A stretch of 58,058 bases of DNA from a virus. Below the pieces are notes generated by a model. That model was given only the letters and a program-made list of their open reading frames with translations, was not told the origin of the DNA and made no database searches. The position numbers and the translations under genes were made by a program. This document shows, in pieces, positions 13,283 through 37,698 of this stretch (positions within the stretch are counted from its first letter, which is position 1; the number at the start of each line of letters is the position of its first letter). The stretch spans positions 1-58,058 of IMG/VR virus record IMGVR_UViG_3300050821_001253; one strand, 5' to 3'.

Positions 13283-13479
13283 AGGTGCTCCTCCTCATCA
13301 AAGTCTTCCATCTCGACCGATTCATCCTCGATCTCGATGTAACCGTCGCCGTCGCAGGCCGGGCAAGGATTCCGCGTTTTGTGCATGTAGCACGGGTCAT
13401 AGAAGTCCGGCCGATGTACCATCTCGTAGCCGTCGCCTTCGCACATCTCGCAGCGAATGGTCCGGGGAATGTCGCTCAT
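13279..13479 (-). CDS. DnaJ-type zinc-finger small protein
   Basis: 66 residues from the ATG at 13479. Two Cys-x-x-Cys-x-Gly-x-Gly repeats (CEMCEGDGY and CPACDGDGY), the signature of the DnaJ central zinc domain, followed by a strongly acidic tail (EDESVEMEDFDEEE). No J-domain. It may bind zinc and a partner protein or DNA; role unknown. Its ATG overlaps the stop of a 24-residue micro-ORF. Confidence 0.7.
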   Translation of the reverse strand: MSDIPRTIRCEMCEGDGYEMVHRPDFYDPCYMHKTRNPCPACDGDGYIEIEDESVEMEDFDEEEHL

Positions 13480-13553
13480 CACGTCGCCGCCATCTCCCAG
13501 CTCGGCGGCTCGGTCTCGACGCGATGCGCGAGGGAGGGGAGGGGAGGGGTCAT
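13479..13553 (-). CDS. 24-residue coupled micro-ORF
   Basis: Fills the whole gap between two genes: its ATG overlaps the upstream stop (TGATG), and its stop overlaps the downstream ATG (TGATG). The peptide is Pro-rich at the start and ends SWEMAAT. The first codons are C-rich and correspond to a G-run tract on the other strand (13532-13549). Confidence 0.5.
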   Translation of the reverse strand: MTPPLPSLAHRVETEPPSWEMAAT

Positions 13554-13879
13554 CAGCGATTCCTCAGTCGTATTTTATTACGCTCGGCGCCGCAGTTACA
13601 CGGGCCTTCTGGCAGCATCTGGTGCTCCCAATCGTTCGACGGACAACAGGGCGCGTGGTGCCAAGGCGTGTATTCGACCAGTCCCTCTCGCAGAGCGACC
13701 TCGATAAGTTCAGCGCGCGTCGGCGGCTGTGTGCGCTCAAACAGTCTCGGCTCAGGCCGTTCGCGCGGAAGGCGGTTCAACGCGATCCCCAACAAATACC
13801 GCGCGATCCGGCGCTGCCGCTTAAATTCGGGGTCGTGCTCGATATCTTCTGGTATGGCTACGCGAGTTGCGCTGCTCAT
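13553..13879 (-). CDS. hypothetical protein with C-terminal Cys motif
   Basis: 108 residues. Basic helical N-terminal half (PEFKRQRRIARYLLGIALNR), then TRAELIEVALREGLVEYTPW and a Cys-rich end (CCPSNDWEHQMLPEGPCNC). Overlaps the previous gene by four bases. No family recognised. Confidence 0.6.
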   Translation of the reverse strand: MSSATRVAIPEDIEHDPEFKRQRRIARYLLGIALNRLPRERPEPRLFERTQPPTRAELIEVALREGLVEYTPWHHAPCCPSNDWEHQMLPEGPCNCGAERNKIRLRNR

Positions 13880-14244
13880 GGCGCGTCGCCCTTGCGGATG
13901 GCTGCGCGAACCACATCCAGGCAGTTCGTCACCTCCGCTACAAGGCCGGCATCCATCTCGTCCAGCGTCGATATATCGCCAGCGAGCGTGAACGAGTCGA
14001 TGCGATGCTGAAGCTCGGCGGCTAGGAAATGCTCAGCGTTGCGCAATGCGGTATCCTTGCGCGCCACCTCAGCCTCGGCCCGCTCTGCGCGGTCGAGGAG
14101 TGATGCAATTAGGCACTCCGTAAAAGCATACTTGTGCTGACACGGCACGGGCGCTTCGCTGGGATGACAGGTGCAAATCCGGGAATCTGGCTTCTGCGCC
14201 TCCGCCAGCGCGCGGAGCCTGGTGTCAGGCGTCGGATTCTGCAT
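13876..14244 (-). CDS. hypothetical coiled-coil protein, 122 residues
   Basis: Cys/His residues near the start (CTCHPSEAPVPCQHKY) may bind zinc, followed by a heptad-like helix (ASLLDRAERAEAEVARKD) and a second helical stretch. Overlaps the next gene by four bases. Function unknown. Confidence 0.6.
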   Translation of the reverse strand: MQNPTPDTRLRALAEAQKPDSRICTCHPSEAPVPCQHKYAFTECLIASLLDRAERAEAEVARKDTALRNAEHFLAAELQHRIDSFTLAGDISTLDEMDAGLVAEVTNCLDVVRAAIRKGDAP

Positions 14245-14719
14245 TTGCGATCCCCTTATCCGCGCGCTCGCCCCACATCATCAGCCAACCGCGACACATG
14301 CGGAGTTTTTTCACGTCCTCAAACATTGTGCCGGGGCATAGTTCTTTGCTGACGGCCTTTTCTGGGTAGGCAAAGCCGTGCTTGCTGCCAGGAACGATCG
14401 GGACGCCTTTGTGGCAATAGAAGCGACCATTGGCCTTGAGGCTGGCCATAAGCTCCTTCCACTTCGCCGCGTCCTTCTGCTCAGGACTACCGGGACGGAA
14501 AGCGCAGTTGTCGCACGGTTCCTTGAAGCTGCTCGTCGTCGGCGCGTCTGTGTCAAGTAATTGCGCGGGATCGAATGGCTCCCAGAAAGCCTTGCAGTTT
14601 GCGCAGGCTTCCAGCTTTTCCGCATAGAAGCCGGTCGGCGGCAATGTTAACTCTTTGACTCGTCGTGATCCACACTTCGGACAGCGACCGGCGCCGCGAA
14701 CCTTAGTCTCAGATGTCAT
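14225..14719 (-). CDS. double zinc-ribbon protein
   Basis: 164 residues from the ATG at 14719, about 11 bases after an AGGAGG box; a GTG at 14728 is nearer to it. Zinc-ribbon N-terminus CPKCGSRRVKE with CANC, then a second cluster CDNCAFRPGSPEQKD and GRFYCHKGVP, with CPGTMF and CRGW later. The CxNC-x-FRPGSPE part resembles a small phage family of unknown role. Nucleic-acid binding is likely. Confidence 0.65.
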   Translation of the reverse strand: MTSETKVRGAGRCPKCGSRRVKELTLPPTGFYAEKLEACANCKAFWEPFDPAQLLDTDAPTTSSFKEPCDNCAFRPGSPEQKDAAKWKELMASLKANGRFYCHKGVPIVPGSKHGFAYPEKAVSKELCPGTMFEDVKKLRMCRGWLMMWGERADKGIANAESDA

Positions 14720-14734
14720 GCTCGTCACCCCCTC

Positions 14735-16876: not shown

Positions 16877-16883
16877 GGCACCC

Positions 16884-18299
16884 TCAATAGCTGATGGAAA
16901 CGTGTGGGATTTCTGACTTCGCGATCGCAGTAACGATGGCGACTGCGATCTTCTCGGCGCCCTCTTGGTTGCCTTCGAACGCCTCGCTCATCGCCAGCGC
17001 AACGGCAGCAACTGCCTCACGATTGATCTTCCGCCGATGCGCAACGTTCGCCTCACGCTTGCGAGTTTTTTCGGCAATGCGAGCCGCTTCCTGTTCCTGA
17101 CGGCGGCGCTCGGCTTCAACGGCAGCTTGCCGCGTGGCTTCGGCCAGACGTTCGGCCTCAATCCGCGCGGCCTCAGCCTGCTTGGCCTCCCGTTGTTCAG
17201 CGGTGGCCAGTAGCGATTCCGTTCGGCTGATTTCTGTGGCCAACGTCTTCGCTGCCTTGTCGGCATACTCCTGCCAATCGCGCGCCGGATAGTTGTTCAG
17301 ATATTCCAGCCGGCGCCGCAGCTCTGCCGATGTCTCCGCCGCACCAAAGCCGGGATGTTCGCAAATCGCCTCCAGCGCTTCTGTGTGCGCCAGCATCCGA
17401 GCGGTTTCGGCGCGCGCCTCGGCTTCCTGACGCTGACGCTCCGCAAGCGCCAATGCCTCAGCGGTTTCGCGCTCGCGACGGGCAGCGGCATCACGTTCGG
17501 CCTGTGCTTGGCGCTCGATCATGGCGGCTTCCTCTGCCGCCACCCTCTCAGCTTCAACGCGCGCCGCCTCGGCAGCCTCCGCTGCGATACGGGCCTCTCG
17601 CTCAGCCTGTAGTCTCGCCGCCTCCGCGCGTTGCCGCTCGGCTTCCTCTGCCGCCAGTCGCGCATCCTCAGCGGCTTGCGCTTCGCGTTCGGCCAGTTCC
17701 ATGCGCGCGACCTTCAGCGCATTGAACGCTGCGGCTGCGGCATCCTGCGCCCGCTGGCGGAACTCCTGCCAGTCGCGTTCGCGATGCGGATGCGCGCCTA
17801 ATTCGGTGATGCGGGCAGCAATCTGTACGGAAGTCCATGCCGGATCGACAGTCGCCCAGCCGGTGATTTCGGCGAGCGCGGCCTCATGTCCAGCAATGCG
17901 CGCCTTCTCCGCGTTCTCAAAGTCGGTGAGCGGTTGGCGCACCTGAACCTTGAGCGCGTCCATGCGCTCCTCGATCAGATTGCATTCCTCGTTCACGGCC
18001 TTGGTGGATTTGCGCCAGCTTTCGGTAAGGCTTTTCCCGAGCCGGATCAGATCCATTTTGGACGACGCAACCTCAGCCGCGAGTGATGCGATTTCGCGCC
18101 GTCCTTTTGGGGTTGAGATGTCGGGCTTGTGCGCCGCGATCTTCTTCGCCAGCGTACCAAGAATGTCGTTTTCATCAGCGGCCAGGATCGTTGGCAATGA
18201 CGACGGCGGGATCACTGCCAACGCAGTTGATTGCGTGCTGGTGATCGCGTCCAGCAATGGCGCCATCGTTTCCATTGAGGCTTCGTTTACGTCGTTCAT
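16884..18299 (-). CDS. long coiled-coil protein of the early operon
   Basis: 471 residues from an ATG with a GGAG ribosome site; a longer upstream reading is less likely. The N-terminal 100 residues are helical (DILGTLAKKIAAHKPD). About residues 180-420 are a near-continuous Ala/Glu/Arg coiled coil (AERQRAEAARLQAEREARIA), interrupted near 300-345 by ICEHPGFGAAETSAELRRR. The C-terminal 50 residues form a conserved-looking helical domain ending IPHVSISY. Possibly a structural partner of the recombination enzymes downstream. Confidence 0.65.
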   Translation of the reverse strand: MNDVNEASMETMAPLLDAITSTQSTALAVIPPSSLPTILAADENDILGTLAKKIAAHKPDISTPKGRREIASLAAEVASSKMDLIRLGKSLTESWRKSTKAVNEECNLIEERMDALKVQVRQPLTDFENAEKARIAGHEAALAEITGWATVDPAWTSVQIAARITELGAHPHRERDWQEFRQRAQDAAAAAFNALKVARMELAEREAQAAEDARLAAEEAERQRAEAARLQAEREARIAAEAAEAARVEAERVAAEEAAMIERQAQAERDAAARRERETAEALALAERQRQEAEARAETARMLAHTEALEAICEHPGFGAAETSAELRRRLEYLNNYPARDWQEYADKAAKTLATEISRTESLLATAEQREAKQAEAARIEAERLAEATRQAAVEAERRRQEQEAARIAEKTRKREANVAHRRKINREAVAAVALAMSEAFEGNQEGAEKIAVAIVTAIAKSEIPHVSISY

Positions 18300-18337
18300 C
18301 TGATCACTCCATTCCCAATGCCACTCAGCAGATACAT
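18296..18337 (-). CDS. 13-residue coupled micro-ORF
   Basis: Short ORF in the only gap of this stretch; its stop overlaps the downstream ATG (ATGA), and it contains that gene's GGAG ribosome site. Its own start has only a weak ribosome site and does not overlap an upstream stop, so this is the weakest of the micro-ORFs. Confidence 0.3.
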   Translation of the reverse strand: MYLLSGIGNGVIR

Positions 18338-18369
18338 CGCGCGGACCCGGCGAGCGTCGTCCTGGCGCG

Positions 18370-18684
18370 TTACGGCGTGTAAGCCTTTTCCCGCGCCGTC
18401 GCCTCCGCATCCGCGCCATTCGCAACCGCGCGCAGATACGCCGTCATCTCCGGATACAGCCGCATCTCGGCCCGCGCGCATGCGGCACGGAACCGGAGCC
18501 AGCGGATGTCGATGTCAGCCGGCATGTCGGGCCGCGTCCGCAGGACGCTCGGCACGATCCCCAACGCGATGCCGTCGCGGATGATCTGGCGGTCGATCGA
18601 GGTTGCCGCGGCATCAGGCAGCAGCGGCAGCATCTCGCGCTCGGCGGCTTGCATGCGCTCTACGGGGTCCAGGGTGGCGAGCAT
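18370..18684 (-). CDS. hypothetical helical protein, 104 residues
   Basis: Starts at an ATG that overlaps the upstream stop (TAATG). Helical throughout (LDPVERMQAAEREMLPLLPD and RFRAACARAEMRLYPEM). Not recognised. Confidence 0.6.
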   Translation of the reverse strand: MLATLDPVERMQAAEREMLPLLPDAAATSIDRQIIRDGIALGIVPSVLRTRPDMPADIDIRWLRFRAACARAEMRLYPEMTAYLRAVANGADAEATAREKAYTP

Positions 18685-19518: not shown

Positions 19519-19838
19519 GACCGTTGCGCCCAAGCCCGCACAGCGGCGAAGATGCTTACGGGTTTCGCGGGAGACGGCGCGGGCAATGCCAACGGGGCAT
19601 CGCTAACAACAGTGGCGTCTATATAGGCGCCCTGCCAGTTCTTCCCTTGCGCACCACACCGGCCCAAGCCCCCACGCCAAGTCGCGCAGTAGTAATGGTT
19701 GTCTGGGCCATCTTCTCCAGCCACTAGATACTCAGCCGTTTTCAGGGCGCTTGGGTGCATGCACTTCGCATTAGTCGCCCGGTGCCCATCAGCGTGCATC
19801 CACCGGCAATCAACGCACAGGCGTTCGTTCGCGCCCAT
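19515..19838 (-). CDS. hypothetical Cys/His-rich protein, 107 residues
   Basis: Starts at the ATG overlapping the micro-ORF stop. Cys/His pattern LCVDCRWMHADGHR, KCMHPS, YYCATWRG and GRCGAQG suggests a zinc-binding fold; the end is Ala/Pro-rich. Function unknown. Confidence 0.6.
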   Translation of the reverse strand: MGANERLCVDCRWMHADGHRATNAKCMHPSALKTAEYLVAGEDGPDNHYYCATWRGGLGRCGAQGKNWQGAYIDATVVSDAPLALPAPSPAKPVSIFAAVRAWAQRS

Positions 19839-19900
19839 CACAGCCACCCCACCACCGCAGCATAACCGGCGGCTCGCGCGGATTGGGTTGGGGCGGTCAT
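19838..19900 (-). CDS. 20-residue coupled micro-ORF
   Basis: ATG overlaps the upstream stop (ATGA), and the stop overlaps the next ATG (TGATG), so it exactly bridges the gap. The C-terminal half is hydrophobic (GYAAVVGWL). Confidence 0.5.
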   Translation of the reverse strand: MTAPTQSARAAGYAAVVGWL

Positions 19901-22033: not shown

Positions 22034-22275
22034 GCGCGTGGCAACCAATCGAGACTGCGCCGAAGGATGGCACCGTAATCGACCTTTGGGTTGATGATCC
22101 CCAATGGGGCGCCACCCGAGAATGCGACATGCGTTGGATCAAGCATACGCGCTACTACCGGAACGGTCGCACGGAGGACGTAGAGGGCTGGGGCTGGCCC
22201 GGCTTGGATGAGCCGGACTTTCTTTCGGATGGCAAGCCAACGCATTGGATGCCCGTACCGGAGCCGCCGGCATGA
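22030..22275 (+). CDS. DUF551-type protein
   Basis: 81 residues from a GTG overlapping the previous stop. WQPIETAPKDGTVIDLWV at the start and THWMPVPEPP at the end match the DUF551 family, as in 18684-19127 on the other strand. Function not known. Confidence 0.75.
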   Translation: MSAWQPIETAPKDGTVIDLWVDDPQWGATRECDMRWIKHTRYYRNGRTEDVEGWGWPGLDEPDFLSDGKPTHWMPVPEPPA

Positions 22276-22322
22276 CGCACGCAGCGGCGCGGCAGATGGA
22301 GTTGGTGGAGGGCCACCGATAA
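22272..22322 (+). CDS. 16-residue coupled micro-ORF
   Basis: ATG overlaps the previous stop (ATGA), and the TAA overlaps the next ATG (TAATG). It bridges the full gap and carries the GGAGGG ribosome site of the next gene. Confidence 0.5.
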   Translation: MTHAAARQMELVEGHR

Positions 22323-22726
22323 TGTGCATGTGGGACGGCGCCGATCCGCCAACGGTTTCGCGCAAGAGCCACCACGCCACACGGAAGCCACGTGTCTGTG
22401 AGGAGTGCGGCCGTACCATCAATGTTGGCGAGCGCTATTGCTACGAGTTCATGGTGTACGAGGGCAACGCTATGACGTTCTATCGCTGCCCGCATTGTGA
22501 GATCGCGGCAGTTTGGCTCATCGAGAACTGCGGCGGCTACATGGTTGGCGGCGGCGCGATCCAACAGGACATCCGCGAGCATGTCAGCGAATATCGGTCT
22601 CTCGCTTACGGATTGTGGCGGCTTGTCGTCGGTATCCGGCGCAAATGGCAGCGGTTCGACGGCGCGGGCTTGATGCCGATTGAGCACGTGCCCGCTGGCA
22701 TTCAGCGAGTGATGGCCGATGCCTGA
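22322..22726 (+). CDS. zinc-finger protein, 134 residues
   Basis: Starts at the ATG overlapping the micro-ORF stop. VCEECGRTINVGERYCYEF and CPHCEIAAVW form a four-Cys zinc module of a kind common in phage early genes; the C-terminal half is helical and ends PAGIQRVMADA. Function unknown. Confidence 0.65.
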   Translation: MCMWDGADPPTVSRKSHHATRKPRVCEECGRTINVGERYCYEFMVYEGNAMTFYRCPHCEIAAVWLIENCGGYMVGGGAIQQDIREHVSEYRSLAYGLWRLVVGIRRKWQRFDGAGLMPIEHVPAGIQRVMADA

Positions 22727-22952: not shown

Positions 22953-23341
22953 GAAAGTATTCGCCAAAGTTGCCCAAAGACTATGCCGAATCCGCGATTG
23001 AGGTGATCCGCCATCTGGTTGCGGCCCATCGCGGAACCGGCATGGGCACCCGCGCGGCGCTCGAAGTCATCGCGCCAGAACTGGAAATGCCGCTTCGCCG
23101 TCCGCGCCGTCTCTTTGAGCGCGATCGCGATCCGCATGTCGGCATCGATGAATACAGCCGCCTCCTGTTCCTCGGTGCCCGCATCTTGCGCCGCATCGCA
23201 GATCATCTGCGCGAACGCGCGGATCGGTGGGATGCTGAGGCCGATCTGCTGGAAATCAAGCACAGACAACTAAGCCTATGGAACGGGGCCGGGGAATGGA
23301 CATTGCGTGGCGGCGCACCGCCGCAAAGACGTGCCGCATGA
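22949..23341 (+). CDS. hypothetical protein, 130 residues
   Basis: GTG with an AAGGA ribosome site. Basic and helical (SAIEVIRHLVAAHRGTGMG, ARILRRIADHLRERADRWD). Helix-rich, Arg-rich composition fits DNA or RNA binding, but no family recognised. It is the first gene after the internal terminator. Confidence 0.6.
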   Translation: MRKYSPKLPKDYAESAIEVIRHLVAAHRGTGMGTRAALEVIAPELEMPLRRPRRLFERDRDPHVGIDEYSRLLFLGARILRRIADHLRERADRWDAEADLLEIKHRQLSLWNGAGEWTLRGGAPPQRRAA

Positions 23342-23529
23342 TCACAGCACAGCTCTATCGCATCGCGTTGAACGTGGAGACGCGCTCAGCCATGCACCGC
23401 GCCGATCGGCTGATCGGGAAGCGTCCCCGCATCGACTGGGTGCGTGTCGCGGTGTGGACGCTGGGGCCGCTGGGGTGCGTCGCGTTCTGGTGGTGGCTCG
23501 GGTCAGAGATCGCGCGGTTGGGGTGGTGA
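23338..23529 (+). CDS. small membrane protein
   Basis: 63 residues, ATG overlapping the previous stop. Basic N-terminal half (NVETRSAMHRADRLIGKRPR), then one membrane span (VAVWTLGPLGCVAFWWWLG). Function unknown. Confidence 0.6.
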   Translation: MITAQLYRIALNVETRSAMHRADRLIGKRPRIDWVRVAVWTLGPLGCVAFWWWLGSEIARLGW

Positions 23530-23561
23530 TGGAAGCGACAGACAGGGAAGGGGCGGGGTGA
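23529..23561 (+). CDS. 10-residue coupled micro-ORF
   Basis: ATG overlaps the previous stop (TGATG), and the stop overlaps the next ATG (TGATG). It consists largely of the purine-rich ribosome site of the next gene. Probably a translational bridge rather than a functional peptide. Confidence 0.4.
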   Translation: MEATDREGAG

Positions 23562-23871: not shown

Positions 23872-24270
23872 ATGAGTAACGTACCGACATCTGATGAGAT
23901 CATGGCCGGGATGCATAAGGCTATCGCATCCGGCGCCAGCGCTACGTCTCCCGCACCAAAGCCGGAGAAGCCGAGCCTGGAAGCGTCAGACGAGAAGAAG
24001 CGCCTGCGCTCAGTTGTTGATCGGATCGTTCGTCTCGAAGAGGAGAAGAAAGGTCTCGGCGCCGACATTCGGGCGATTTACGATGAGGCCAAATCGGCCG
24101 GTTACTCAAAGAAGTCCATTCGCATCGTTGTGTAACGCGAGATGGAGGACGGCGAGCAACGCGCCGCGCGCGAGGCGGCAGAAGATGAGGCCGAGGCGAT
24201 CATGGCGGCGCTCGGTGATTTTGCCAGTTCACCGCTTGGTGAGTCTGCGACGGGCCGCGGCCGTCACTGA
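23872..24270 (+). pseudogene. GapR/DUF2312-like gene interrupted by in-frame TAA
   Basis: From the ATG at 23872 (GAGGGGG ribosome site) the reading gives 87 residues with the DUF2312 core LRSVVDRIVRLEEEKKGLGA, then DIRAIYDEAKSAGYSKKSIR, the coiled-coil DNA-binding fold of GapR. Then TAA at 24133-24135. The same frame continues with REMEDGEQRAAREAAEDEAE and IMAALGDF, which matches the expected C-terminal end, and stops at 24270 with a TGATG overlap to the next gene. So a single codon change splits an otherwise intact 132-codon gene. The first piece alone may still bind AT-rich or overtwisted DNA. Confidence 0.75.
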
Positions 24271-24584
24271 TGGGCAACGTGCCGTTTAAGAGCGTGACCA
24301 TTGAAAGCGCGCCGTCAGACTGGCGGCGTCAGTTTCATTGCGGCTGGGTGCACGCGCAGAACGGCCAAGCGTGGTCGAATGATTACGATCGCATGAACAA
24401 GAGTGAGCAGATTGCTTATGAGCAAGGGCGACTGCTCGCGAGGGAAGCGATAGCTGCTGGGTTCGCGTTGCCTGTCTGGCGCGGCGACAAGGGCGCGGCG
24501 CGATCCGTGGACGTTCTGTGGACCGAGGTTTGGAGAAAGCTTGGTCACGCGCCAGTCCCTCGCGAAAGGACAACAGCACCATGA
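24270..24584 (+). CDS. hypothetical protein, 104 residues
   Basis: ATG overlaps the previous stop. FHCGWVHAQNGQAWSNDYDR, then IAYEQGRLLAREAIAAGFAL suggests a small alpha/beta phage protein. Function unknown. Confidence 0.6.
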   Translation: MGNVPFKSVTIESAPSDWRRQFHCGWVHAQNGQAWSNDYDRMNKSEQIAYEQGRLLAREAIAAGFALPVWRGDKGAARSVDVLWTEVWRKLGHAPVPRERTTAP

Positions 24585-24799
24585 CCCCCGAACCCTTCGG
24601 CGCGCGGGTCCGCAGGTTGCGGATGGAGGCTCGGCTGACGCAGGCGCAAGTCGCGAAGCGTGCCGGTGCGAGCGATGAGCGCCTGGTCTCGAACTGGGAG
24701 CGCGGCTTCTGCCATCCCCGCATCGACAGGCTTGCTCCACTGGCTCAGGCGCTAGGCGTCTCCTGCGATGTGCTGCTGACGGGTTGTGAGGCGGTATGA
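24581..24799 (+). CDS. XRE-family helix-turn-helix protein
   Basis: 72 residues, ATG overlapping the previous stop. FGARVRRLRMEARLTQAQVA, then DERLVSNWERGFCHPRIDRL and LAQALGVSCDVLL is a complete XRE domain with no other part. A second regulator of the operon or of the adjacent methyltransferase; like C-proteins, it lies directly upstream of the methylase gene. Confidence 0.8.
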   Translation: MTPEPFGARVRRLRMEARLTQAQVAKRAGASDERLVSNWERGFCHPRIDRLAPLAQALGVSCDVLLTGCEAV

Positions 24800-25601: not shown

Positions 25602-26041
25602 CGACGCCATACCTCCTCCGCGTGCCGGCGCGCCAGATGAACAGGCTTGTATGCGCCTATTGTGGCGACGGGCTGAATGAGGATCGCGACGGAACCGCGA
25701 ATTTCCGCACGCGCGATCACATTCTGACGCGGCTTGGACCGTTCATTCGTCGCATGGAGCACATCGGCGGTCCCGATGTCACCAACATCCGGCCATGCTG
25801 TTTCTCCTGCAATCAACTCCGCGCCGAACTAGGACACTGCTGCGGCGCGCTGGCCATTGCGATCCTGCACGGCATCCACACCGGACAGCCAAAGAAGCGT
25901 GCCGCGAAGGCGTTGGGGATGCTTCAGCCGAAGAAGCGGCGGCGGTTCACTGCTGCTGAGCGGCGACGGATGCGCAGCCATCGGCTCGCAGTTCGCGCAA
26001 ACCAGCCGCTCCCCACGCTTGCCGCTGTGTGGCCGGCATGA
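25598..26041 (+). CDS. HNH-like zinc protein
   Basis: 147 residues from a GTG overlapping the previous stop. CAYCGDGL, TRDHILTR and IRPCCFSCNQLRAELGHC give a Cys4 frame around an Asp-His, as in HNH-type nuclease folds. The C-terminal tail is very basic (PKKRRRFTAAERRRMRSHR). Likely a DNA endonuclease or a relic of one that only binds DNA. Confidence 0.65.
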   Translation: MTTPYLLRVPARQMNRLVCAYCGDGLNEDRDGTANFRTRDHILTRLGPFIRRMEHIGGPDVTNIRPCCFSCNQLRAELGHCCGALAIAILHGIHTGQPKKRAAKALGMLQPKKRRRFTAAERRRMRSHRLAVRANQPLPTLAAVWPA

Positions 26042-26547
26042 CCGTCCAGCGAGAACACGCCTTCCAGGGCATTGCTGATCGCTTCATCGACCGCGTGATG
26101 CTGGCGCCCTATTGGACGACGGGCATCAACCACGAGAACGAACTGACCGACAACGCCAGGGCGCGCGCTCGCGGTCGTGGCGTAAAGCCGGGCGTTCCGG
26201 ATATCTACATCGCACAAGGCGGTCGGTCCTGCTGGATCGAACTGAAGTGGGGCAGCAATCAGCCTTCGGATGCTCAGATTGCGGTTCACGACGCACTGAC
26301 TGATTGCCAGATCGCTCGATCCTTCGCGTGGTCGATCCACGGGATCATGACGGCGCTGCTCGGTGCCGGTTTCAGCTTGCATCCGAATGCCCTCAACATC
26401 GCCGTCGAGTATCAGGCGCGCGCAGAGGCGGCCGTAGCGAAGGCAGAGGAACGGGCATCGCGGCCTCGGTCCAGGGGACGTGCCCGTTCCCTGAAACCGA
26501 CCCCGGCACAGGTTCGGCGGGTTCGTGCGGCTGGAGTACTCGTGTGA
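26038..26547 (+). CDS. VRR-NUC domain nuclease
   Basis: 169 residues from an ATG overlapping the previous stop. VRR-NUC signature: an early Glu/Asn-rich part, GVKPGVPDIYIA (Asp) and CWIELKWG (E-x-K), then a helix after. A basic C-terminal tail. Homologues cut branched or flap DNA and are common near phage replication genes. Confidence 0.85.
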   Translation: MTVQREHAFQGIADRFIDRVMLAPYWTTGINHENELTDNARARARGRGVKPGVPDIYIAQGGRSCWIELKWGSNQPSDAQIAVHDALTDCQIARSFAWSIHGIMTALLGAGFSLHPNALNIAVEYQARAEAAVAKAEERASRPRSRGRARSLKPTPAQVRRVRAAGVLV

Positions 26548-26741
26548 GCGATCCAACCTATACCGGCACACTGACGAAGGGCGCCGCACCCAACACGGTC
26601 GAGCTCGTACTCCGCGACGTGTTTGGCTGGGAAATCCGTGGTACTGGCCAGCGCCAACCGGACGGCTCCTATGCCCTTAGCGCCACCGTTGGCGATCCGG
26701 GGTTTCTGCGGCTGCCGGCGATCGACGGAGAGGCACCATGA
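26544..26741 (+). CDS. hypothetical protein, 65 residues
   Basis: GTG overlapping the previous stop. Beta-rich (LVLRDVFGWEIRGTGQRQPD). No family recognised. Confidence 0.55.
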   Translation: MSDPTYTGTLTKGAAPNTVELVLRDVFGWEIRGTGQRQPDGSYALSATVGDPGFLRLPAIDGEAP

Positions 26742-26923
26742 CAGCGCTCATCATCGAGTTCGGCCGTTGCGGCTTCGGGCCATCACGTTCCGGGCTGCGG
26801 CTCTGGTGGATCCACATCTATGCGTGCCGGCATTCAATCCTGGACGAGTTTGCGACCCTACGCCGGCGCGTCGATGCCAGACAACCACGTGATCGCAGCG
26901 GACGATTTGTGAGGGCGTCGTGA
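26738..26923 (+). CDS. hypothetical protein, 61 residues
   Basis: Overlaps both neighbours by four bases. Aromatic-rich first half (GLRLWWIHIYACRHSIL) and a basic tail ending RSGRFVRAS. Unknown. Confidence 0.5.
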   Translation: MTALIIEFGRCGFGPSRSGLRLWWIHIYACRHSILDEFATLRRRVDARQPRDRSGRFVRAS

Positions 26924-27261
26924 AGCTGCGGAGCAGGCCGCGCGGTCGTGCCCATCGTGCATGGATACGCGAGAACATCGTGGCGTATGTGCGCCCCGGC
27001 TGCATGTTGCCGACAGGTGCAGAAATCGGCAGGCACCTCGGCATTTGCCAGTCAGAGGCGGACCAACACCTGAAGCGGGTCCTCGCCGAGCATGGAATCG
27101 AGACAGTGGTGTGCGGCGTTAAGAGCAACGCACCCGTCAGGCGGCGGAAATTCGTCACTTTTTTCCGAAGTCCCCCGTTACCCAAGGATACCGACTATTC
27201 AACCGGCGCGGGCGCGCGTGTAGATACAACGTCCAGCCAACAAACCGAGGCCGGACCATGA
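26920..27261 (+). CDS. hypothetical winged-helix-like protein
   Basis: 113 residues from a GTG overlapping the previous stop. Basic start, then helices IRENIVAYVRPG, TGAEIGRHLGICQSEADQHL and a beta pair (IETVVCGVKSNAPVRRRKFV) in a winged-helix order. It lies just before the replication-type gene. Identification is by pattern only. Confidence 0.55.
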   Translation: MKLRSRPRGRAHRAWIRENIVAYVRPGCMLPTGAEIGRHLGICQSEADQHLKRVLAEHGIETVVCGVKSNAPVRRRKFVTFFRSPPLPKDTDYSTGAGARVDTTSSQQTEAGP

Positions 27262-28076
27262 GCGATTTACCCGCCCCGCTGACGCCGCCTGAATGCGATC
27301 TCCGCGGCTATGACTTCATGCCGCTGTTCGGGCACCGGCTGTTCCGTTCCGATCTCTACGAGCAGACGGATGGCGAGGAGTTCAAGTGCGCCGTCAAGCT
27401 GTGGTGGGAGGCATGGAACCAGTGCCCGGCTGGCTCGCTACCGGACGACGACGCGAAGCTGGCACGCCTTGCTGATCTCGGCCGCGACGTAAAGACATGG
27501 CGCAAGATGCGTGACGCCGTGCTGCGCGGCTTCGTGCTGTGTAGCGACGGACGCCTATACCACAAGGCCCTCTGCGAATGGGCGATGGAGGCATACGAGC
27601 GACGGGTCAGAGACCGTCAACGGAAGCGGAAATGGCGCGACAAGGGACGGGACGGAGACGGGGACAACCCTAGTCCGTCACGCGGACCAGACGGACGTTT
27701 CCACCCCCCAAGTGACGGGGACAACAACGACAGTCCGCGTCACAGAGACGTTCTACCACCGTTGACAGGAGAGGACAGGACAGGACAGGAGAGGAGAGGA
27801 GAGGAAATCAAGAAAGATTTAAACCTTTCTGAGGAAGAGTCTCTGTCCCGCGCGGGAAGCGAACCGGAGCCGTCCCGCACCGACATCATCGGTCCTGACG
27901 CGTCGGCATCGGTTATCTCCCTCGTCCGCAAGGCGCTGAAACCGACAGCGTATCCGCCGGGACGCCGGCCAGTGCGGGACGCCGCCGAGCAGATCGAGGC
28001 CGTTGCCAAGCCGCCGCCGAAGTCCGCGCATCTGACGCCGGAGCAGCTCGCGTTGGTACGCAGGAGGACCGCATGA
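27258..28076 (+). CDS. YdaU-like (DUF1376) replication protein
   Basis: 272 residues. The N-terminal 110 residues have the DUF1376 pattern LFGHRLFRSDLYEQ, FKCAVKLWWEAWNQ, PAGSLPDDDAKLARLADLG and CSDGRLYHKALCEWAMEAYE. The middle (residues 115-200) is a low-complexity charged linker. The C-terminal part is short. This family occurs at the position of replication initiators in many temperate phages. The linker-coding DNA holds a purine repeat and an AT-rich palindrome (27762-27830). Confidence 0.75.
   Translation: MSDLPAPLTPPECDLRGYDFMPLFGHRLFRSDLYEQTDGEEFKCAVKLWWEAWNQCPAGSLPDDDAKLARLADLGRDVKTWRKMRDAVLRGFVLCSDGRLYHKALCEWAMEAYERRVRDRQRKRKWRDKGRDGDGDNPSPSRGPDGRFHPPSDGDNNDSPRHRDVLPPLTGEDRTGQERRGEEIKKDLNLSEEESLSRAGSEPEPSRTDIIGPDASASVISLVRKALKPTAYPPGRRPVRDAAEQIEAVAKPPPKSAHLTPEQLALVRRRTA
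27762..27830. other. candidate replication origin inside the replication gene
   Basis: A purine tract of tandem GGACA and GGAGA repeats (27768-27805) is followed by an AT-rich stretch with the perfect palindrome AGAAAG-ATTTAAAC-CTTTCT (27811-27830). Repeats beside an AT-rich unwinding stretch inside the replication gene is the layout of the lambda origin in gene O. No protein binding is shown. Confidence 0.4.
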
Positions 28077-28111
28077 CCCCGCCACACCCCGCGCCGGAGG
28101 TGGTGCTGTGA
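28073..28111 (+). CDS. 12-residue coupled micro-ORF
   Basis: ATG overlaps the replication-gene stop (ATGA); stop overlaps the next GTG. Contains a GGAGGTGG ribosome site for the next ORF. Confidence 0.45.
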   Translation: MTPPHPAPEVVL

Positions 28112-28155
28112 CCCCGGCGCAGGCGGAGCGGCTGATCGCTGCGGTGGTGGGATGA
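28108..28155 (+). CDS. 15-residue coupled micro-ORF
   Basis: GTG overlaps the previous micro-ORF stop; its own stop overlaps the next ATG (ATGA). Reads as a short helix (TPAQAERLIAAVVG). Two micro-ORFs in a row bridge this gap. Confidence 0.45.
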   Translation: MTPAQAERLIAAVVG

Positions 28156-28604
28156 GCGCGCCGGCACTCGATCTCTGCGGCCGAACCTTTGGCCGGCTCG
28201 CCGTCGCGAGACGAGCTGGCAGCGACGCGCAAGGCCGAGCGCTTTGGCTTTGTGTCTGTAAATGCGGCGCTGAATGCCTTAATCGCTCCAGTGATCTGGT
28301 GGCTGCGAAAGTCAAGAGTTGCGGCTGTTGGAGGAGCGAGCGCGCCGGGCAGATAGGCACGGCTTCGCGCGGCAAGACGCTGGGCCGTAGGGCTGGATCG
28401 CGCCCGATGGGGCGCGCTTTGGTCGATTTGACCGGCAAAGTTTTTGGCTGCCTCACGGCGCAGGAGCGCGTCGGTTTCACCCGCTCCCGGCATTCGTTGT
28501 GGGCCTGTATCTGCGAGTGCGGCGCGAGCCGTGTTGTTAGCATTTCTATCCTCCGACGGAGCGCCACGGGCTGCCGCTGCCTGAAGCGTGGGGGGCCAAC
28601 ATGA
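28152..28604 (+). CDS. tandem zinc-ribbon domains of the phage AP2/HNH type, nuclease part absent
   Basis: 150 residues made of two copies of one domain: DLCGRTFGRLAVARRAG...CVCKCGAE...SCGC and DLTGKVFGCLTAQERVG...CICECGAS...GCRC. The same domain opens the HNH protein at 42057 (DFAGQRFGRLTVVKRE, CECDCG, SCGC). Here no HNH or AP2 part follows, so it may be a DNA-binding relic or a regulator built by duplication. Confidence 0.7.
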   Translation: MSAPALDLCGRTFGRLAVARRAGSDAQGRALWLCVCKCGAECLNRSSDLVAAKVKSCGCWRSERAGQIGTASRGKTLGRRAGSRPMGRALVDLTGKVFGCLTAQERVGFTRSRHSLWACICECGASRVVSISILRRSATGCRCLKRGGPT

Positions 28605-31289: not shown

Positions 31290-31291
31290 AC

Positions 31292-31913: not shown

Positions 31914-33635
31914 ATGTCTGATCCTATCATCGGCCCCGATCGCATCGACACCATCGACGATCTCGATTCCGGGAATTTGGGTCTCTACGAGTTCTGGATG
32001 GGCCAGGAGAAGATCGCGGAGAAGGAAGAGGACAAGTGGATCAAGCGCGCCCGCAAGGTGGTGAAGCGCTACCGCGATGAGCGGCCGGAATCGATGCAGA
32101 TGACGCATCGGTTTAACATCCTCTGGTCCAATGTGCAGACGCTGATCCCGACGCTATACGCGCGGACCCCGAAGCCGGACATCCAGCGCCGGTTCAAGGA
32201 TCAGGACGACACCGGGCGGCTGGCATCCGATCTGCTGGAGCGTTGCATCTCGTTCTCGCTCGATCCGTCGCATTCGGACTTCGACGCCGTGATGCTGGCG
32301 TGTGTCGAGGACAGGCTGCTGCCGGGCCGCGGCGTGCCGCGCGTGCTGTATGTGCCCCACTTCGGCGACACGATACCGGAGGGCAAGCAAACCACGGGCG
32401 ACGGCACAGCGCCAGCATTCGAGGAGACGCAGGGCGCTTCGGCTGTCGTGGATAATGAGGGCGACGAAGGCGAGCCGCTACGTGAGGTGGTGTACGAGGA
32501 AGTCATCACCAGCTACGTATTTTGGGAGGACTACCGCGAAGGCCCGGCACGGACTTGGCGCGAGGTTCCGTGGGTTCGCTATCAGGCGTTCATGACGCGT
32601 GATGAGCTTGTCAAGCGGTTCGGGTCCAAGAAGGGGAAGAAAGTCAACCTCGATTTCCCGTCAAAGAGCCGTGAGGAAAACCGCGAAGGCCAACGCGAGG
32701 AAGTGCCGCCCGATCTGTTCCGTAAGGCGATCGTGCGGGAGTATTGGGACAAGGCGAAGAAGCGCGTCATCTGGATTGCGCCTGGCACGCCTGATCTGGT
32801 GCTGGACGAGATCGACGATCCGCTCGGGCTGCCGAACTTCTTCCCGAACCCGGATCCGCTGCTGGCAACGACGACCAACGATACCCGCATTCCGGTGCCG
32901 GACTTCATCGAGTACCAGGACCAGGCCGACGAGCTGGACAAACTGACGGCGCGGATTGATCGACTGACGCGGGCGCTCAAGGTGAGCGGCGTCTATGCCG
33001 GCGAGCAGAAACAGGCGCTCCAGCAACTGATCGATGAGGGCACCGAGAACCGGCTGATCCCGATTGAGGACTGGCAGTCGTTCGCTGACAAGGGCGGCAT
33101 GCAGAACATCATCCAATGGCTGCCGATCAAGGATATCGCTGGAACGCTGGTGCAGCTCTATGATGCCCGCGACCGCGTGAAGTCGATCCTGTACGAGATC
33201 ACCGGTATCGGCGATATCATGCGAGGCAACACGCAGCCGAACGAGACGCTCGGCGCCCAGCAGTTGAAGGCCAACTTCATCACTCGGCGCGTGGTGCCGC
33301 AGCAGCGGGCCGTGGCGCGGCTGGCGCGGGATACGATCCGGCTGATGGCGGCGATCATTGCGGGGCATTTCTCGGCCGATACCATTTCGCAGATCACCGG
33401 CTATCCGCAACTGCTGCCGGTGCCGGAACTGCCGCCAGCGCCGCCGCAATGGATACCGGCGCCTGTGCAGCAGGCGCCCGTTATGGCGCCTCCTCCACAG
33501 CAAGCACCGGCGGCTGCCAACGCCAATGCGCCACCGCCCCAGGCGTTGCAGCAGCTACGCGAGGGCGTGCCGACGCGGTTTGCGAACGGGCAGCGGTGGA
33601 TGTTGCGTAATGGGCAAGCGGTGAGGGTGGCGTGA
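31914..33635 (+). CDS. portal protein
   Basis: 573 residues with a GAGG ribosome site. Typical of podovirus portals: acidic/basic start (QEKIAEKEEDKWIKRARKV), NILWSNVQTLIPTLYARTPK, SYVFWEDYREGPARTWREV, a central stem-helix region (TARIDRLTRALKVSGVYAGE) and TQPNETLGAQQLKANFITRR. It forms the 12-subunit ring through which DNA passes. The C-terminal 80 residues are Pro/Gln/Ala-rich. Confidence 0.85.
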   Translation: MSDPIIGPDRIDTIDDLDSGNLGLYEFWMGQEKIAEKEEDKWIKRARKVVKRYRDERPESMQMTHRFNILWSNVQTLIPTLYARTPKPDIQRRFKDQDDTGRLASDLLERCISFSLDPSHSDFDAVMLACVEDRLLPGRGVPRVLYVPHFGDTIPEGKQTTGDGTAPAFEETQGASAVVDNEGDEGEPLREVVYEEVITSYVFWEDYREGPARTWREVPWVRYQAFMTRDELVKRFGSKKGKKVNLDFPSKSREENREGQREEVPPDLFRKAIVREYWDKAKKRVIWIAPGTPDLVLDEIDDPLGLPNFFPNPDPLLATTTNDTRIPVPDFIEYQDQADELDKLTARIDRLTRALKVSGVYAGEQKQALQQLIDEGTENRLIPIEDWQSFADKGGMQNIIQWLPIKDIAGTLVQLYDARDRVKSILYEITGIGDIMRGNTQPNETLGAQQLKANFITRRVVPQQRAVARLARDTIRLMAAIIAGHFSADTISQITGYPQLLPVPELPPAPPQWIPAPVQQAPVMAPPPQQAPAAANANAPPPQALQQLREGVPTRFANGQRWMLRNGQAVRVA

Positions 33636-33697
33636 CGCGTTGCTTTCGAGGGCCGCTCAGCTTGTTGATGAGCTTGAGAGGCTGGCATAATCCGTGA
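33632..33697 (+). CDS. 21-residue coupled micro-ORF
   Basis: GTG overlaps the portal stop (GTGA), and its stop overlaps the next GTG (GTGA), so it exactly bridges the 58-base gap between portal and aminotransferase. Peptide is basic and Leu-rich (RGPLSLLMSLRGWHNP). Confidence 0.55.
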   Translation: MTRCFRGPLSLLMSLRGWHNP

Positions 33698-34791
33698 AAG
33701 TCCCCGTAGTCAACCTCCGCGAAGCCTATGAAGTCGATCGCGTGGAAATCGACGCCTCCATGCGTCGCGTCATGGAGTCCGGCTGGTACATTCTCGGCCC
33801 AGAAGTCGAGTCATTCGAGCGCGAGTTCGCCCACTGGCTCGGTACCAAGCACTGCGTCGGCGTGGCGAATGGGACCGACGCGATTGCGCTAGCACTAAAG
33901 GCCGTCGGGTGCGGTCCCGGCACAACCGTCGTCACGGTCTCGCATACGGTAAGCGCGACGGTCGCCGCGATCGAGCAAATCGGTGCCACACCGCTGCTGA
34001 TCGACATCGAGGCGGGGTTCTACACGATGGATCCCCGCGAATTGGCCGACGTGCTGGACTCGCCACCAGCCAACGTGCCTCCGATCAGGGCCGCGCTGCC
34101 GGTGCATCTGTATGGCGGCGCGGCTGATCTGCGGTCGATTGCCGCAGTATGTCGGCGTCATGGCGTCGCGTTGGTTGATGACTGCGCGCACGCGGTTGGG
34201 GCGACGTTCGAGGGCGAGAAGATCGGCGCAACGCTGGCCGATGCGTCGTGCTTCAGCTTCTATCCGACGAAGAACCTTGGTGGCTTTGGTGACGGCGGCG
34301 CGGTGACGACGCGCGACGATGCCATTGCGGAGCGGGTGCGCTCACTGCGGCAATACGGCTGGGGGCAACGCTATGTATCGGAGATGGCCGGCGGCGTGGA
34401 CAGCCGACTGGACGAGCTGCAGGCGGCGATACTGCGCGTGAGGCTGCGGCGGTTGGATGAGCGGCAAGAACGCCGATGGCTAATAGCCCGTGATTACGGT
34501 TGCGCGCTTCCCTTTCATCATGGGGACGCTCCCAATCATCTCTACGTCGTGCGCGTGCCAGATCGCAACGCCTTCATGGCGCACCTCGAATCCCATGGCA
34601 TTCAGGGCGCCATCCATTATCCGGTCCCAGTACACTTGCAACCGGCCTATCGCGATCGCGTTGCGCTTGGTCCATCAGGTTGCCGGGAAAGCGAACGCGC
34701 GTCGCAGGAGGTCGTGAGCCTGCCGATCTATCCCGAGATGACCGACGAACAGCTCGCCATCGTGTGCGACGCGCTGCGGAGTTGGAAATGA
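33694..34791 (+). CDS. DegT/DnrJ/EryC1/StrS-type sugar aminotransferase
   Basis: 365 residues from a GTG. A PLP enzyme that turns a keto group of a nucleotide-linked sugar into an amine. Family features in order: WYILGPEVESFEREFA, GVANGTDAIALALKA, TVSHTVSATVAAIEQIGATP, DDCAHAVGATFEGEKIG (Asp for the PLP nitrogen), SFYPTKNLGGFGDGG (Lys193, the Schiff base) and GVDSRLDELQAAIL. It is full length with every key residue. It sits between the portal gene and further head genes, an odd place for metabolism. The acyltransferase and glycosyltransferase genes at 43143-45238 are probable partners. Confidence 0.92.
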   Translation: MKVPVVNLREAYEVDRVEIDASMRRVMESGWYILGPEVESFEREFAHWLGTKHCVGVANGTDAIALALKAVGCGPGTTVVTVSHTVSATVAAIEQIGATPLLIDIEAGFYTMDPRELADVLDSPPANVPPIRAALPVHLYGGAADLRSIAAVCRRHGVALVDDCAHAVGATFEGEKIGATLADASCFSFYPTKNLGGFGDGGAVTTRDDAIAERVRSLRQYGWGQRYVSEMAGGVDSRLDELQAAILRVRLRRLDERQERRWLIARDYGCALPFHHGDAPNHLYVVRVPDRNAFMAHLESHGIQGAIHYPVPVHLQPAYRDRVALGPSGCRESERASQEVVSLPIYPEMTDEQLAIVCDALRSWK

Positions 34792-35264
34792 GCGCCTCAG
34801 TCCAACAAGCCGCCGATCCGTGGGATATCGTTGAGCACGAGGCGCCCCCACCACCGGCACCCCCTCCGGCCCCTGCACCAGCACCAGTCCACCCCGACGT
34901 GATCGCCCACACCAGCGCGGCCTTCAGCGCGGCGCACAACGCAAAGACTTCTGCGGATGCGGCCGATGCCGCCGCCAAGGAAGCCCAGATGCACCGCTCG
35001 CACATGGATGCCCGCAAGGCGGAGATCGATTCCGCTCATGCCGCAGTTATGGCGGCGCTTGGCGTTGCCAATGAGCTGGCAGATCGTCTCGGGCAGATGA
35101 TGACGACGCAGCAGGAGCAGATGCTCGCCGCGTTTGCTGCCACAGCAGAGGGTATGCGTGGCATTGTTGCCGAGATGCAGAAGCCGCGGCGCGTGAAGGT
35201 GACGAAGCGGGACCGCGACGGCGGGATCAGCGAAGCGATCAGTGAGGTTAGGAAAGATGCTTGA
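34788..35264 (+). CDS. Ala/Pro-rich coiled-coil structural protein candidate
   Basis: 158 residues, ATG overlapping the aminotransferase stop. Pro-rich start (APPPPAPPPAPAPAPVHPD), then a long helix with Met/Gln runs (QMMTTQQEQMLAAFAATAEG) and a basic end. No family recognised; probably a minor head protein. Confidence 0.6.
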   Translation: MSASVQQAADPWDIVEHEAPPPPAPPPAPAPAPVHPDVIAHTSAAFSAAHNAKTSADAADAAAKEAQMHRSHMDARKAEIDSAHAAVMAALGVANELADRLGQMMTTQQEQMLAAFAATAEGMRGIVAEMQKPRRVKVTKRDRDGGISEAISEVRKDA

Positions 35265-35835
35265 CGTTCTGAATGCCGGCGACGTCGTCACTGCCGGAAT
35301 GACTGCCGACGCAGGATCGATCGAACGCGCCGGCGCCAAGGGATGGTACAACCTAACCTGTTACGACGATAAAGGCATGCCGATCTGGACTGAGCGCGTT
35401 GACAATGTAGTCTGCACGCTTGGCAAGAACGCGACGTTCGCTGCTGCCTTGCAGGGGTCGTCCTATACCGTCACTGGTCCTTATATGCTGCTGATCTCCA
35501 GCGCATCATTTTCGGCGGTCTCAGCGGCAGATACCATGGCATCGCATAGTGGGTGGCTTGAGGCGGGAAGCGCGAACGCCCCTACATTCTCTGGCACCCG
35601 CCCCACTGTCTCGTTCAATGCTCCGTCGAGTGGTACCATCACCAGTTCCGGCACGATTTCCTATGTGATCACTGGAACAGGCACCATCCAAGGCATCGCC
35701 ATGACCTTCGGTACTGGCGCCACGAGCGCGATTGCCAACAGTGGGGGCACGTTGCTTTCTGCGGGCACGTTGGGCACCGCGCAGCCTGTCATCAACGGCA
35801 ATACGGTTGTCGCGACCTATACGCTGACGATGTAA
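35257..35835 (+). CDS. conserved phage structural protein, beta-rich
   Basis: 192 residues from the ATG at 35257 behind GGTTAGGAA. Pattern KGWYNLTCYDDKGMPIWTER, VCTLGKNATFAAALQGSSYT, TGPYMLLISSASFSA, then DTMASHSGWLEAG and repeated Thr/Ser-Gly strands is shared by a family encoded among podovirus head genes. It may be a head fibre or decoration protein. Confidence 0.65.
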   Translation: MLDVLNAGDVVTAGMTADAGSIERAGAKGWYNLTCYDDKGMPIWTERVDNVVCTLGKNATFAAALQGSSYTVTGPYMLLISSASFSAVSAADTMASHSGWLEAGSANAPTFSGTRPTVSFNAPSSGTITSSGTISYVITGTGTIQGIAMTFGTGATSAIANSGGTLLSAGTLGTAQPVINGNTVVATYTLTM

Positions 35836-35838
35836 GCA

Positions 35839-36222
35839 ATGGCGTCGGATCAGTTCGGCGTCGTGCACACGGCGAACAACATCATCATAGCCATCATCGA
35901 AACCGAAGGCGATGCGGACAATTCGGCGCTCGATCGGCGCGAAGGCCGTCTGGCGCAGGGCTATAAGCTGACCCGGCTCAATCACACTGATCATCCTGTC
36001 AAACCAGACGGTAGCGGGCGTCGCGTCACTGACCTTCAACCCCACATTGGTATGCCGGCACACTCAGGGCGCTGCGTGATAGTGCGCGACGGCAACGTCG
36101 TCGCCACGGCGCAGGCTGATCCAGCCGTTTGGCAAAGCGAGCTCGGCACCCTCATTCAGCACGATCAGGCTGACGTCGGGTGGATTTACAAGGATGGCAC
36201 CTTTTCGCCGCCGGCCGCATGA
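35839..36222 (+). CDS. hypothetical protein, 127 residues
   Basis: Mixed alpha/beta: VVHTANNIIIAIIETEGDAD, then YKLTRLNHTDHPVKPDG, with a beta end (DVGWIYKDGTFSPP). Overlapped by the next gene (ATGA). Probably a virion accessory; not recognised. Confidence 0.55.
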   Translation: MASDQFGVVHTANNIIIAIIETEGDADNSALDRREGRLAQGYKLTRLNHTDHPVKPDGSGRRVTDLQPHIGMPAHSGRCVIVRDGNVVATAQADPAVWQSELGTLIQHDQADVGWIYKDGTFSPPAA

Positions 36223-37637
36223 CGACGATTTTCTATACCGGCTCCGGGACGTGGGTCGCCGGCCTGACGGGCAGCATCGCGGCGCACGCCATTGGCGCGG
36301 GCGGTGGCGGCGGTCCGTACAAGGCTGGAGGCGGCGGTGAGCACCGCGAGAACTCGTCGATGTCAGTCACGTCAGGTAACTCCTACACGGTGCACGTCGC
36401 CGCGCGATCTGGCGCGGACGCGTCCGGTAGCTACAGTTTCTTTGGCTCGATCTCGACCCTCAAGGCGAATGGTGGAATCGGTAACACCTTCTCGGGCGCC
36501 GGCGGCTCCGGTGGTGTCGGCGCGATCGGGCATAACGGCGGCGGCGGCGCTTCAGGCTACGGAGCCGGCGGAGCGGGCGGCCCAAGTGGCATAGGCGGCT
36601 CTGGGCATGCCACCGGCACTGGTGCCGGCCTCGGCGACACGCCCTCCGCAGCATCCACGGGCGGCTACAAGGCCGGCGGCCAGACAGGCGGCGCCGGCAG
36701 CAGTTTCGGTGCGGGCAAAGGCGCTGGCGGCGGCGGTGCTGGCGCCGTCGGTGCGGTCGCCGGTTCTGGCGGCAAGTATGGCGGTGGCGGTGGCGGCCAG
36801 AGCCACACAGGCGGGAGCACCTACGGCGCGCAGGGCCTTGTGGTGCTGAGCTACTCATCCAGCATAGGAATTTCTGTTTCCGAGGCAGGTATAGGCGCTA
36901 ATACCATAGCGGAGACAATGACGGCTTCTGTGGCTGTCTCGGAGGCGGCCATTGGCGCAGATACCGTTGCCGAGCAGATGTCCGCTGCAATCGCAGCGAC
37001 GGAGACCGCAACGGGTGCTGACGCGGTAGCTGTTCAGGCGACTGTGGCGATTGCCATCTCGGAAACCGGAAGCGCCGCGGATACTGTTGCGGCCGGGATG
37101 ACGGCTGCCATTGCCGCTTCAGAGAGCGGCGTAGCGGCGGACTCGTTTAGCGCAACCGGAGGAGTGACGCCTCCCGTCGTAGTCGCGCCATCAGGCGGGT
37201 TTGACGCCGGCCCCTCCGCATTCGGCGGCTGGTTCAATCTCGCATTCAAGAGCGGCCAGTCCCGGCGCCGGAAGCGCGCAACCGACATCGGCCGCGAACT
37301 GGATGCCCTGGCCTATGCGGAGGAGGCGCATGTTTCACGTGCAACACTCGCGCCAGGGGTTGCGAAACGCACCGATGAGGTCGTCGAGCAGGCTGTCGCG
37401 GCGCTCCGGCGTGATGCCGGCGTTGCGGACGACGCAGCGGCGCTCCGTCGTGTCGCGGCCCACGAGATCGCGTTCGCCAGACTGCGGGAGCAGCAGCGCG
37501 AAGATGCGCGCCGGGCCTTCATCGCGGCGATTGTAGAACGGGCGACGCGGGAGTATATACAGGAAGCCGCCGAGCATCGGCGCCGGCGCGTCGCGCGTGA
37601 TGACGCGGATATCCTGATGCTGATGGAGTTGGTGTGA
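36219..37637 (+). CDS. glycine-rich repeat structural protein
   Basis: 472 residues. Residues 1-200 are a Gly-rich tail-fibre-like domain (VAGLTGSIAAHAIGAGGGGG). Residues 215-305 hold about four degenerate repeats of the form I-S-x-S-E-x-x-x-x-A-D-T-V-A-x-x-M-T-A-A. The C-terminal third is a charged, helical coiled-coil region (RRRKRATDIGRELDALAYAE). Gly-rich proteins of this type form fibres or tips. Confidence 0.65.
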   Translation: MTTIFYTGSGTWVAGLTGSIAAHAIGAGGGGGPYKAGGGGEHRENSSMSVTSGNSYTVHVAARSGADASGSYSFFGSISTLKANGGIGNTFSGAGGSGGVGAIGHNGGGGASGYGAGGAGGPSGIGGSGHATGTGAGLGDTPSAASTGGYKAGGQTGGAGSSFGAGKGAGGGGAGAVGAVAGSGGKYGGGGGGQSHTGGSTYGAQGLVVLSYSSSIGISVSEAGIGANTIAETMTASVAVSEAAIGADTVAEQMSAAIAATETATGADAVAVQATVAIAISETGSAADTVAAGMTAAIAASESGVAADSFSATGGVTPPVVVAPSGGFDAGPSAFGGWFNLAFKSGQSRRRKRATDIGRELDALAYAEEAHVSRATLAPGVAKRTDEVVEQAVAALRRDAGVADDAAALRRVAAHEIAFARLREQQREDARRAFIAAIVERATREYIQEAAEHRRRRVARDDADILMLMELV

Positions 37638-37657
37638 TGGGTGGGAGGGGCGCATGA
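37637..37657 (+). CDS. 6-residue coupled micro-ORF
   Basis: ATG overlaps the previous stop (TGATG); stop overlaps the next ATG (ATGA). It contains the strong GGGAGGGG ribosome site for the next micro-ORF. Too short to be a product; reported as part of a bridging pattern. Confidence 0.35.
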   Translation: MGGRGA

Positions 37658-37698
37658 CGCGAAGGAGCTATACGCATATGACTGGCGAACCCCAATGA
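37654..37698 (+). CDS. 14-residue coupled micro-ORF
   Basis: ATG behind GGGAGGGG and overlapping the previous stop; its stop overlaps the next ATG (ATGA). Peptide MTRRSYTHMTGEPQ. Confidence 0.45.
   Translation: MTRRSYTHMTGEPQ

Follow-up and report, generated by a model that had tools for sequence, protein, structure and literature searches.

According to a review, an overlap of four nucleotides (-4) is by far the commonest spacing in prokaryotes, with -1 and -8 also enriched (PMC12548453), and the phage analysed here follows this pattern. Re-initiation is known at -4 and -1 junctions, with little or no coupling reported once the distance exceeds 30-40 nucleotides (PMC12548453). The same overlapping stop and start codons, NTGA for the -4 and TGATG or TAATG for the -1 arrangement, are found in the 58,058-base IMG/VR virus contig IMGVR_UViG_3300050821_001253, analysed here at its full length (the window). 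The window differs from usual stop-start coupling in that the coupled unit at times comprises just 6-24 codons and overlaps a gene on either side, starting on the stop codon of the upstream gene and stopping on the start codon of the downstream gene. These micro-open reading frames (micro-ORFs) exceed chance, and the favoured explanation, with a probability of about 0.6, is that they are very small, probably translated ORFs representing the short end of the gene sizes in stop-start-coupled phage operons. They resemble the stop-start gene chains that phages and bacteria are already known to have, of which they would be minimal members.

A first-pass annotation of the window had listed nine double-overlap micro-ORFs, and all nine were read directly from the sequence at the coordinates below, with 6-24 codons and a 4-nucleotide or 1-nucleotide overlap with both neighbours. 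A tenth frame overlaps at its 3′ end only, as had been stated, and one further frame of the same architecture was absent from that list, as were two longer linking ORFs (58 and 83 codons), probably ordinary genes.

13479-13553, minus strand: micro-ORF of 24 codons (MTPPLPSLAHRVETEPPSWEMAAT), TGATG at both ends, top coding-like score of the set
19838-19900, minus strand: micro-ORF of 20 codons (MTAPTQSARAAGYAAVVGWL), ATGA start and TGATG end, GGAGG before its ATG
22272-22322, plus strand: micro-ORF of 16 codons (MTHAAARQMELVEGHR), ATGA start and TAATG end
23529-23561, plus strand: micro-ORF of 10 codons (MEATDREGAG), TGATG at both ends, the tail of ORF 23307-23561
28073-28111, plus strand: micro-ORF of 12 codons (MTPPHPAPEVVL), ATGA start and GTGA end, AGGAGG 5 nucleotides before ATG
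28108-28155, plus strand: micro-ORF of 15 codons (VTPAQAERLIAAVVG), GTGA start and ATGA end, GGAGG 7 nucleotides before GTG
33632-33697, plus strand: micro-ORF of 21 codons, GTGA at both ends, between the N-terminal half of the portal gene and a cassette
37637-37657, plus strand: micro-ORF of 6 codons (MGGRGA), TGATG start and ATGA end, after the cassette
37654-37698, plus strand: micro-ORF of 14 codons (MTRRSYTHMTGEPQ), ATGA at both ends, before the C-terminal half of the portal gene
18296-18337, minus strand: ORF with 3′ overlap only, the tail of the longer ORF 18296-18481
51522-51649, plus strand: additional double-overlap ORF of 42 codons, coding-like (z 2.0)

Other described systems resemble the micro-ORFs in part. 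The MIRU of mycobacteria (Supply et al., 1997, as described in PMC12548453) is a short insert carrying an ORF coupled at -4 to the adjacent gene, and the likeness lies in a short inserted sequence whose ORF is coupled to its neighbour. In that description, however, MIRUs are repeated mobile sequences, whereas, apart from a 14-nucleotide match, the micro-ORF spacers of the window are not copies of each other. Comparison of the micro-ORF sequences with the window gave only short, near-chance matches, the longest exact match between two of them being 14 nucleotides, and MIRU-like repeats were rejected as no homologous copies occur across the junctions. The 14-nucleotide string (GCTGCGGTGGTGGG, coding AAVVG) is common to 19848-19861 and 28138-28151, shortly before the stops of both micro-ORFs, and no other likeness within the set is notable. 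The axe-txe minigene is likewise a very short ORF immediately 5′ of a gene, which can raise translation of that gene (PMC8708949), but it has two codons, belongs to the leader of a single toxin gene and does not bridge two genes through overlaps with both. Phage genes of 20-70 codons in operons with 4-nucleotide overlaps are closer in kind, and four of the related loci compared here (L006, L133, L135 and L140) carry such double-overlap genes. The window micro-ORFs extend this size range downwards, most of them being too short for a homology test. If translated, they would rank with the smallest phage mini-genes, escaping gene callers yet affecting expression of the genes behind them.

Excess of double overlaps over chance

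Gene starts are predictions throughout, genes having been called with a codon/dicodon model with frame contrast and the list then completed by hand with the finding already known; a hexamer-based caller, trained solely on the window, failed to find most early genes and was dropped. In the hand-completed list, -4 or -1 overlaps account for 46 of 79 same-strand junctions, and 8 of the 17 same-strand gaps of 11-150 nucleotides are bridged by a micro-ORF. The automatic gene call alone gives 5 of 17, some small early genes having escaped it. The share of bridged gaps is unusually high in the window compared with related loci whether curated (Fisher P 2e-6) or automatic (2e-3) genes are used.

The first-pass annotation had claimed that such double overlaps exceed chance and had proposed a simulation with shuffled spacers as a check. 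Dinucleotide-shuffled spacers gave counts far below those observed, with 12/29 gaps of 1-300 nucleotides bridged against 4.4 expected (P = 2e-6, conditional on spacer length), leaving the claim unrefuted. Swapping spacer halves gave the same picture, both for the 11-150 nucleotide gaps of the window (8/17 bridged against 13% expected, P = 7e-4) and in 75 non-redundant related loci (19/389 against 6.9 expected, P = 9e-5). In the strictest null both end overlaps were fixed, spacer length was randomised modulo 3 and the open frame between the ends was scored. Eight of nine eligible gaps in the window were joined in frame against 2.2 expected (P = 8e-5), as were 19/34 in the 75 distant related loci against 8.3 expected (P = 6e-5), and a third, mixed sample gave 9/20 against about 3.2, carried mainly by low-GC loci. 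The claim is thus borne out by the window as well as by both further sets of loci, and the excess of frame-linked double overlaps is genuine and not peculiar to the window phage. The end-fixed test is simple and applicable to all phage genomes, allowing the generality of the excess to be gauged.

These results bear on the possibility that gene ends in GC-rich phage DNA (58-67% GC across 2-kb blocks of the window) carry NTGA and TGATG so often that, given flexible start sites, some spacers are joined by accident. In keeping with this, the micro-ORF at 33632-33697 is unremarkable on its own (P about 0.4-0.5 given its length) and has a poor coding score, the gap at 37637-37698 depends on the choice of start for the C-terminal half of the portal gene, which has an alternative GTG at 37641, and automatic gene calls give just 5/17. 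Yet the excess persists with end motifs fixed and length randomised and recurs in independent loci, making accident an improbable account of the set; as the whole explanation, pure chance is rejected by the shuffled, half-swapped and end-fixed nulls alike. Chance is likely to account for one or two of the nine micro-ORFs, and 33632-33697 is possibly a chance reading of a remnant. Within the same spacer (33640-33690), another frame reads DALLSRAAQLVDELERLA followed by a stop, scores better and looks more protein-like than the micro-ORF; it may be what remains of the end of a gene since lost or of a longer N-terminal portal half.

Translation signals and coding character

Predicted pairing with the anti-Shine-Dalgarno sequence is as strong at the micro-ORF starts of the window (mean -8.0 kcal/mol) as at gene starts (about -6), stronger than at interior NTGA sites (-2.4; P 8e-7) and stronger than at unused start codons at the gene ends of relatives (P = 0.001). 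The clearest Shine-Dalgarno (SD) sequences are AGGAGG before 28073 and GGAGG before 28108 and before 19900 on the minus strand. With such signals at their starts the window micro-ORFs are probably translated and likely to be coupled to their neighbours.

A codon model served to score coding character, with shuffles that were likewise linked as the reference. The window set is more coding-like than these shuffles (z 2.55), owing to 13479, 28073 with 28108 and 51522, where the coding character is clear, and to 22272, and the double-overlap ORFs of relatives behave similarly (z 2.67), several being evident transmembrane-like mini-peptides such as MAAPAIGVLALFVIVMVLAGAK. On the strength of SD sequences and coding-like codons, 13479-13553, the tandem pair 28073-28111 and 28108-28155, 22272-22322 and 51522-51649 look like genuine mini-genes.

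Alternatively, the spacers might be mis-annotated parts of the neighbouring genes, with true starts later or earlier than chosen or with frameshifts, such that there are no gaps at all. The frame of the C-terminal portal half is open from 37638 with its GTG at 37641, two of the frames (23529-23561 and 18296-18337) form the ends of longer ORFs, and in 33632-33697 it is another frame that is more protein-like. Against this, the family match of the gene at 22322-22726 starts about 4 residues past the chosen start, and 28073-28155 holds two SD-led starts within a chain of 4-nucleotide overlaps; as an account of the set, mis-annotation appears highly improbable.

The first-pass annotation had gone further, proposing that ribosomes are passed along the operon without gaps, the micro-ORFs being selected as bridges whose peptide is irrelevant and which couple expression or shield the RNA from Rho. 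The ends are joined by an open frame far above expectation (8/9 versus 2.2), the SD sequences at the window starts are strong, and since there is little or no coupling beyond 30-40 nucleotides (PMC12548453) the bridging of spacers of 31-75 nucleotides could matter for coupling; the same review notes that short ORFs can supply ribosomes to a coupled gene. However, 8-9 of the 17 gaps of similar length have no bridge, among them the gaps preceding 39702 and 40946 (the latter the major capsid protein gene), and most genes downstream of a micro-ORF retain an SD of their own, so that bridging is not general. A coding-like frame, as several micro-ORFs have, would be superfluous in a mere bridge, micro-ORF starts in relatives show no SD enrichment, and two of the sites border the insertion between the portal halves. 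Thus the overlaps beyond chance, the SD sequences and probable coupling stand, but gap-free transfer or protection from Rho as the purpose finds no such support, and selection for bridging is unlikely. Slightly more doubtful still is its broader form, in which ORFs of 6-24 codons are kept by selection as peptide-indifferent bridges over spacers that would break coupling, a general design giving a frame-linked excess in many phages.

Gene turnover and the split portal gene

Under the favoured explanation the micro-ORFs would have arisen by gene turnover between coupled genes. Insertion, shortening or exchange of a gene would leave the flanking NTGA or TGATG signals in place, the survivor being a short frame open from one signal to the other. 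Once done with the upstream gene, a ribosome would start anew on the micro-ORF, at the overlapping start codon, and do so once more on the gene that follows; coupling across the gap is likely a consequence of this re-initiation. Turnover is favoured because most junctions are already -4 or -1 and because the inserts at the portal gene vary, and it explains the architecture, the mixed coding scores and the portal series. The portal locus of the window comprises:

31914-33635, plus strand: N-terminal half of the portal protein (phrog_12082, E 3.5e-153)
33694-37637, plus strand: 4-kb cassette between the portal halves, with a DegT/DnrJ/EryC1 aminotransferase gene (33694-34791) and four function-unassigned genes
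37695-38447, plus strand: C-terminal half of the portal protein (phrog_12082 positions 518-700)

The cassette genes besides the aminotransferase gave weak or no family matches. The split lies in a proline-rich linker, and the micro-ORFs at 33632-33697 and 37637-37698 form the two borders of the cassette. Among 103 loci with both portal halves the portal is one ORF in 84 and two ORFs in 19. In a maximum-likelihood tree the window pairs with L028 (support 99/89), both being split inside an otherwise unsplit group; there is also a separate clade of 14 split portals, as well as L025.

Loci with no, small or large inserts at the split (L025, L028, L031-L035, L133-L135, L140-L145, L151 and L153) form a series. 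The halves overlap directly in L028 (ATGA) and L025 (GTGA), small inserts occur in L140 (a 35-codon ORF), L135 (69 codons) and L133 (60 and 72 codons), and other relatives carry 1-4 kb at this point; the end overlaps are often preserved. Among L133, L135 and L140 insert length varies while both overlaps persist, the inserts of 35-72 codons being like ordinary small genes. The split looks like an exchangeable cargo slot inside the portal gene, a more unusual by-product of the analysis than the micro-ORFs themselves, and a split portal whose single site holds 0, 1, 2 or more coupled inserts offers a natural series for coupling and hand-off. Insertion of the cassette probably gave rise to the micro-ORFs at 33632-33697 and 37637-37698, either as remnants or as by-products. 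The stop of 37654-37698 falls within the ATGAGC that opens the C-terminal half, at the same place where the N-terminal half of L028 ends (GAPQ versus GEPQ before the stop, L028 against window), and its 3′ overlap may therefore be inherited from the old junction between the halves rather than selected for bridging.

Several observations weigh against the favoured explanation. The likeness between GAPQ and GEPQ covers only a few residues. Micro-ORF starts in relatives have SD sequences no better than unused starts at gene ends, so that the SD signal holds in the window but fails in relatives as a group, and SD enrichment was rejected as a general mark of micro-ORFs. Coding scores are neutral for 19838 and neutral or poor for 23529, 33632 and 37637-37698, and with scores so uneven the set is a mixture. 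No conserved counterpart of any window micro-ORF was found in relatives, most being too short for such a comparison, and neither peptide function nor shrinkage from a longer gene is therefore directly seen.

Further features of the portal slot were noted. A frequent cargo is one large gene of 716-933 amino acids with the N-terminal motif (L/V)(I/V)PVDHDP (L031, L034, L035, L143, L144 and L151), which gave no family match, and a similar motif opens the 60-amino-acid gene in L133. A small gene starting MSNNVMWLVN lies between the portal halves at 6152-6406 in L145 and 5468-5677 in L153, and its differing insert positions suggest that it moves within the slot. In L025 (Bradyrhizobium phage ppBjS10J-1) the annotation starts the C-terminal half at 15692, but its homologous frame opens at a GTG at 15503 overlapping the stop of the N-terminal half (GTGA), and the annotated start looks too late.

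The phage, its relatives and the early operon

The portal relatives are Mx8-like podophages, with about 35% identity to Myxococcus phages Mx8 and Mx9 and Bradyrhizobium phage ppBjS10J-1, and portals of uncultivated contigs reach up to about 70% identity to that of the window. The capsid gene of one relative sits in a Xanthobacteraceae genome bin, and the host is therefore probably alphaproteobacterial. A DNA search of the phage record collection found no near relative of the window, and for the early-region spacers about 40 related records (DNA and protein) and further protein scans gave only distant single-gene matches; comparison of spacers among orthologues was thus confined to the portal junction.

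In the early region of the window the tandem micro-ORFs lie in a single operon:

24270-28604, plus strand: early operon, its genes chained almost throughout by 4-nucleotide (NTGA) overlaps, housing the tandem micro-ORFs at 28073-28155
28152-28604, plus strand: HNH-endonuclease-like gene (phrog_374) following the tandem micro-ORFs

A search of IMG/VR with the peptide pattern of 28108-28155 (MTPAQAERL) gave five matches, all N-termini of long unrelated proteins, and thus no sign that this micro-ORF is a truncated known gene. The tandem micro-ORFs are simply two more links in the early plus-strand operon, and the HNH-like gene behind them is probably mobile.

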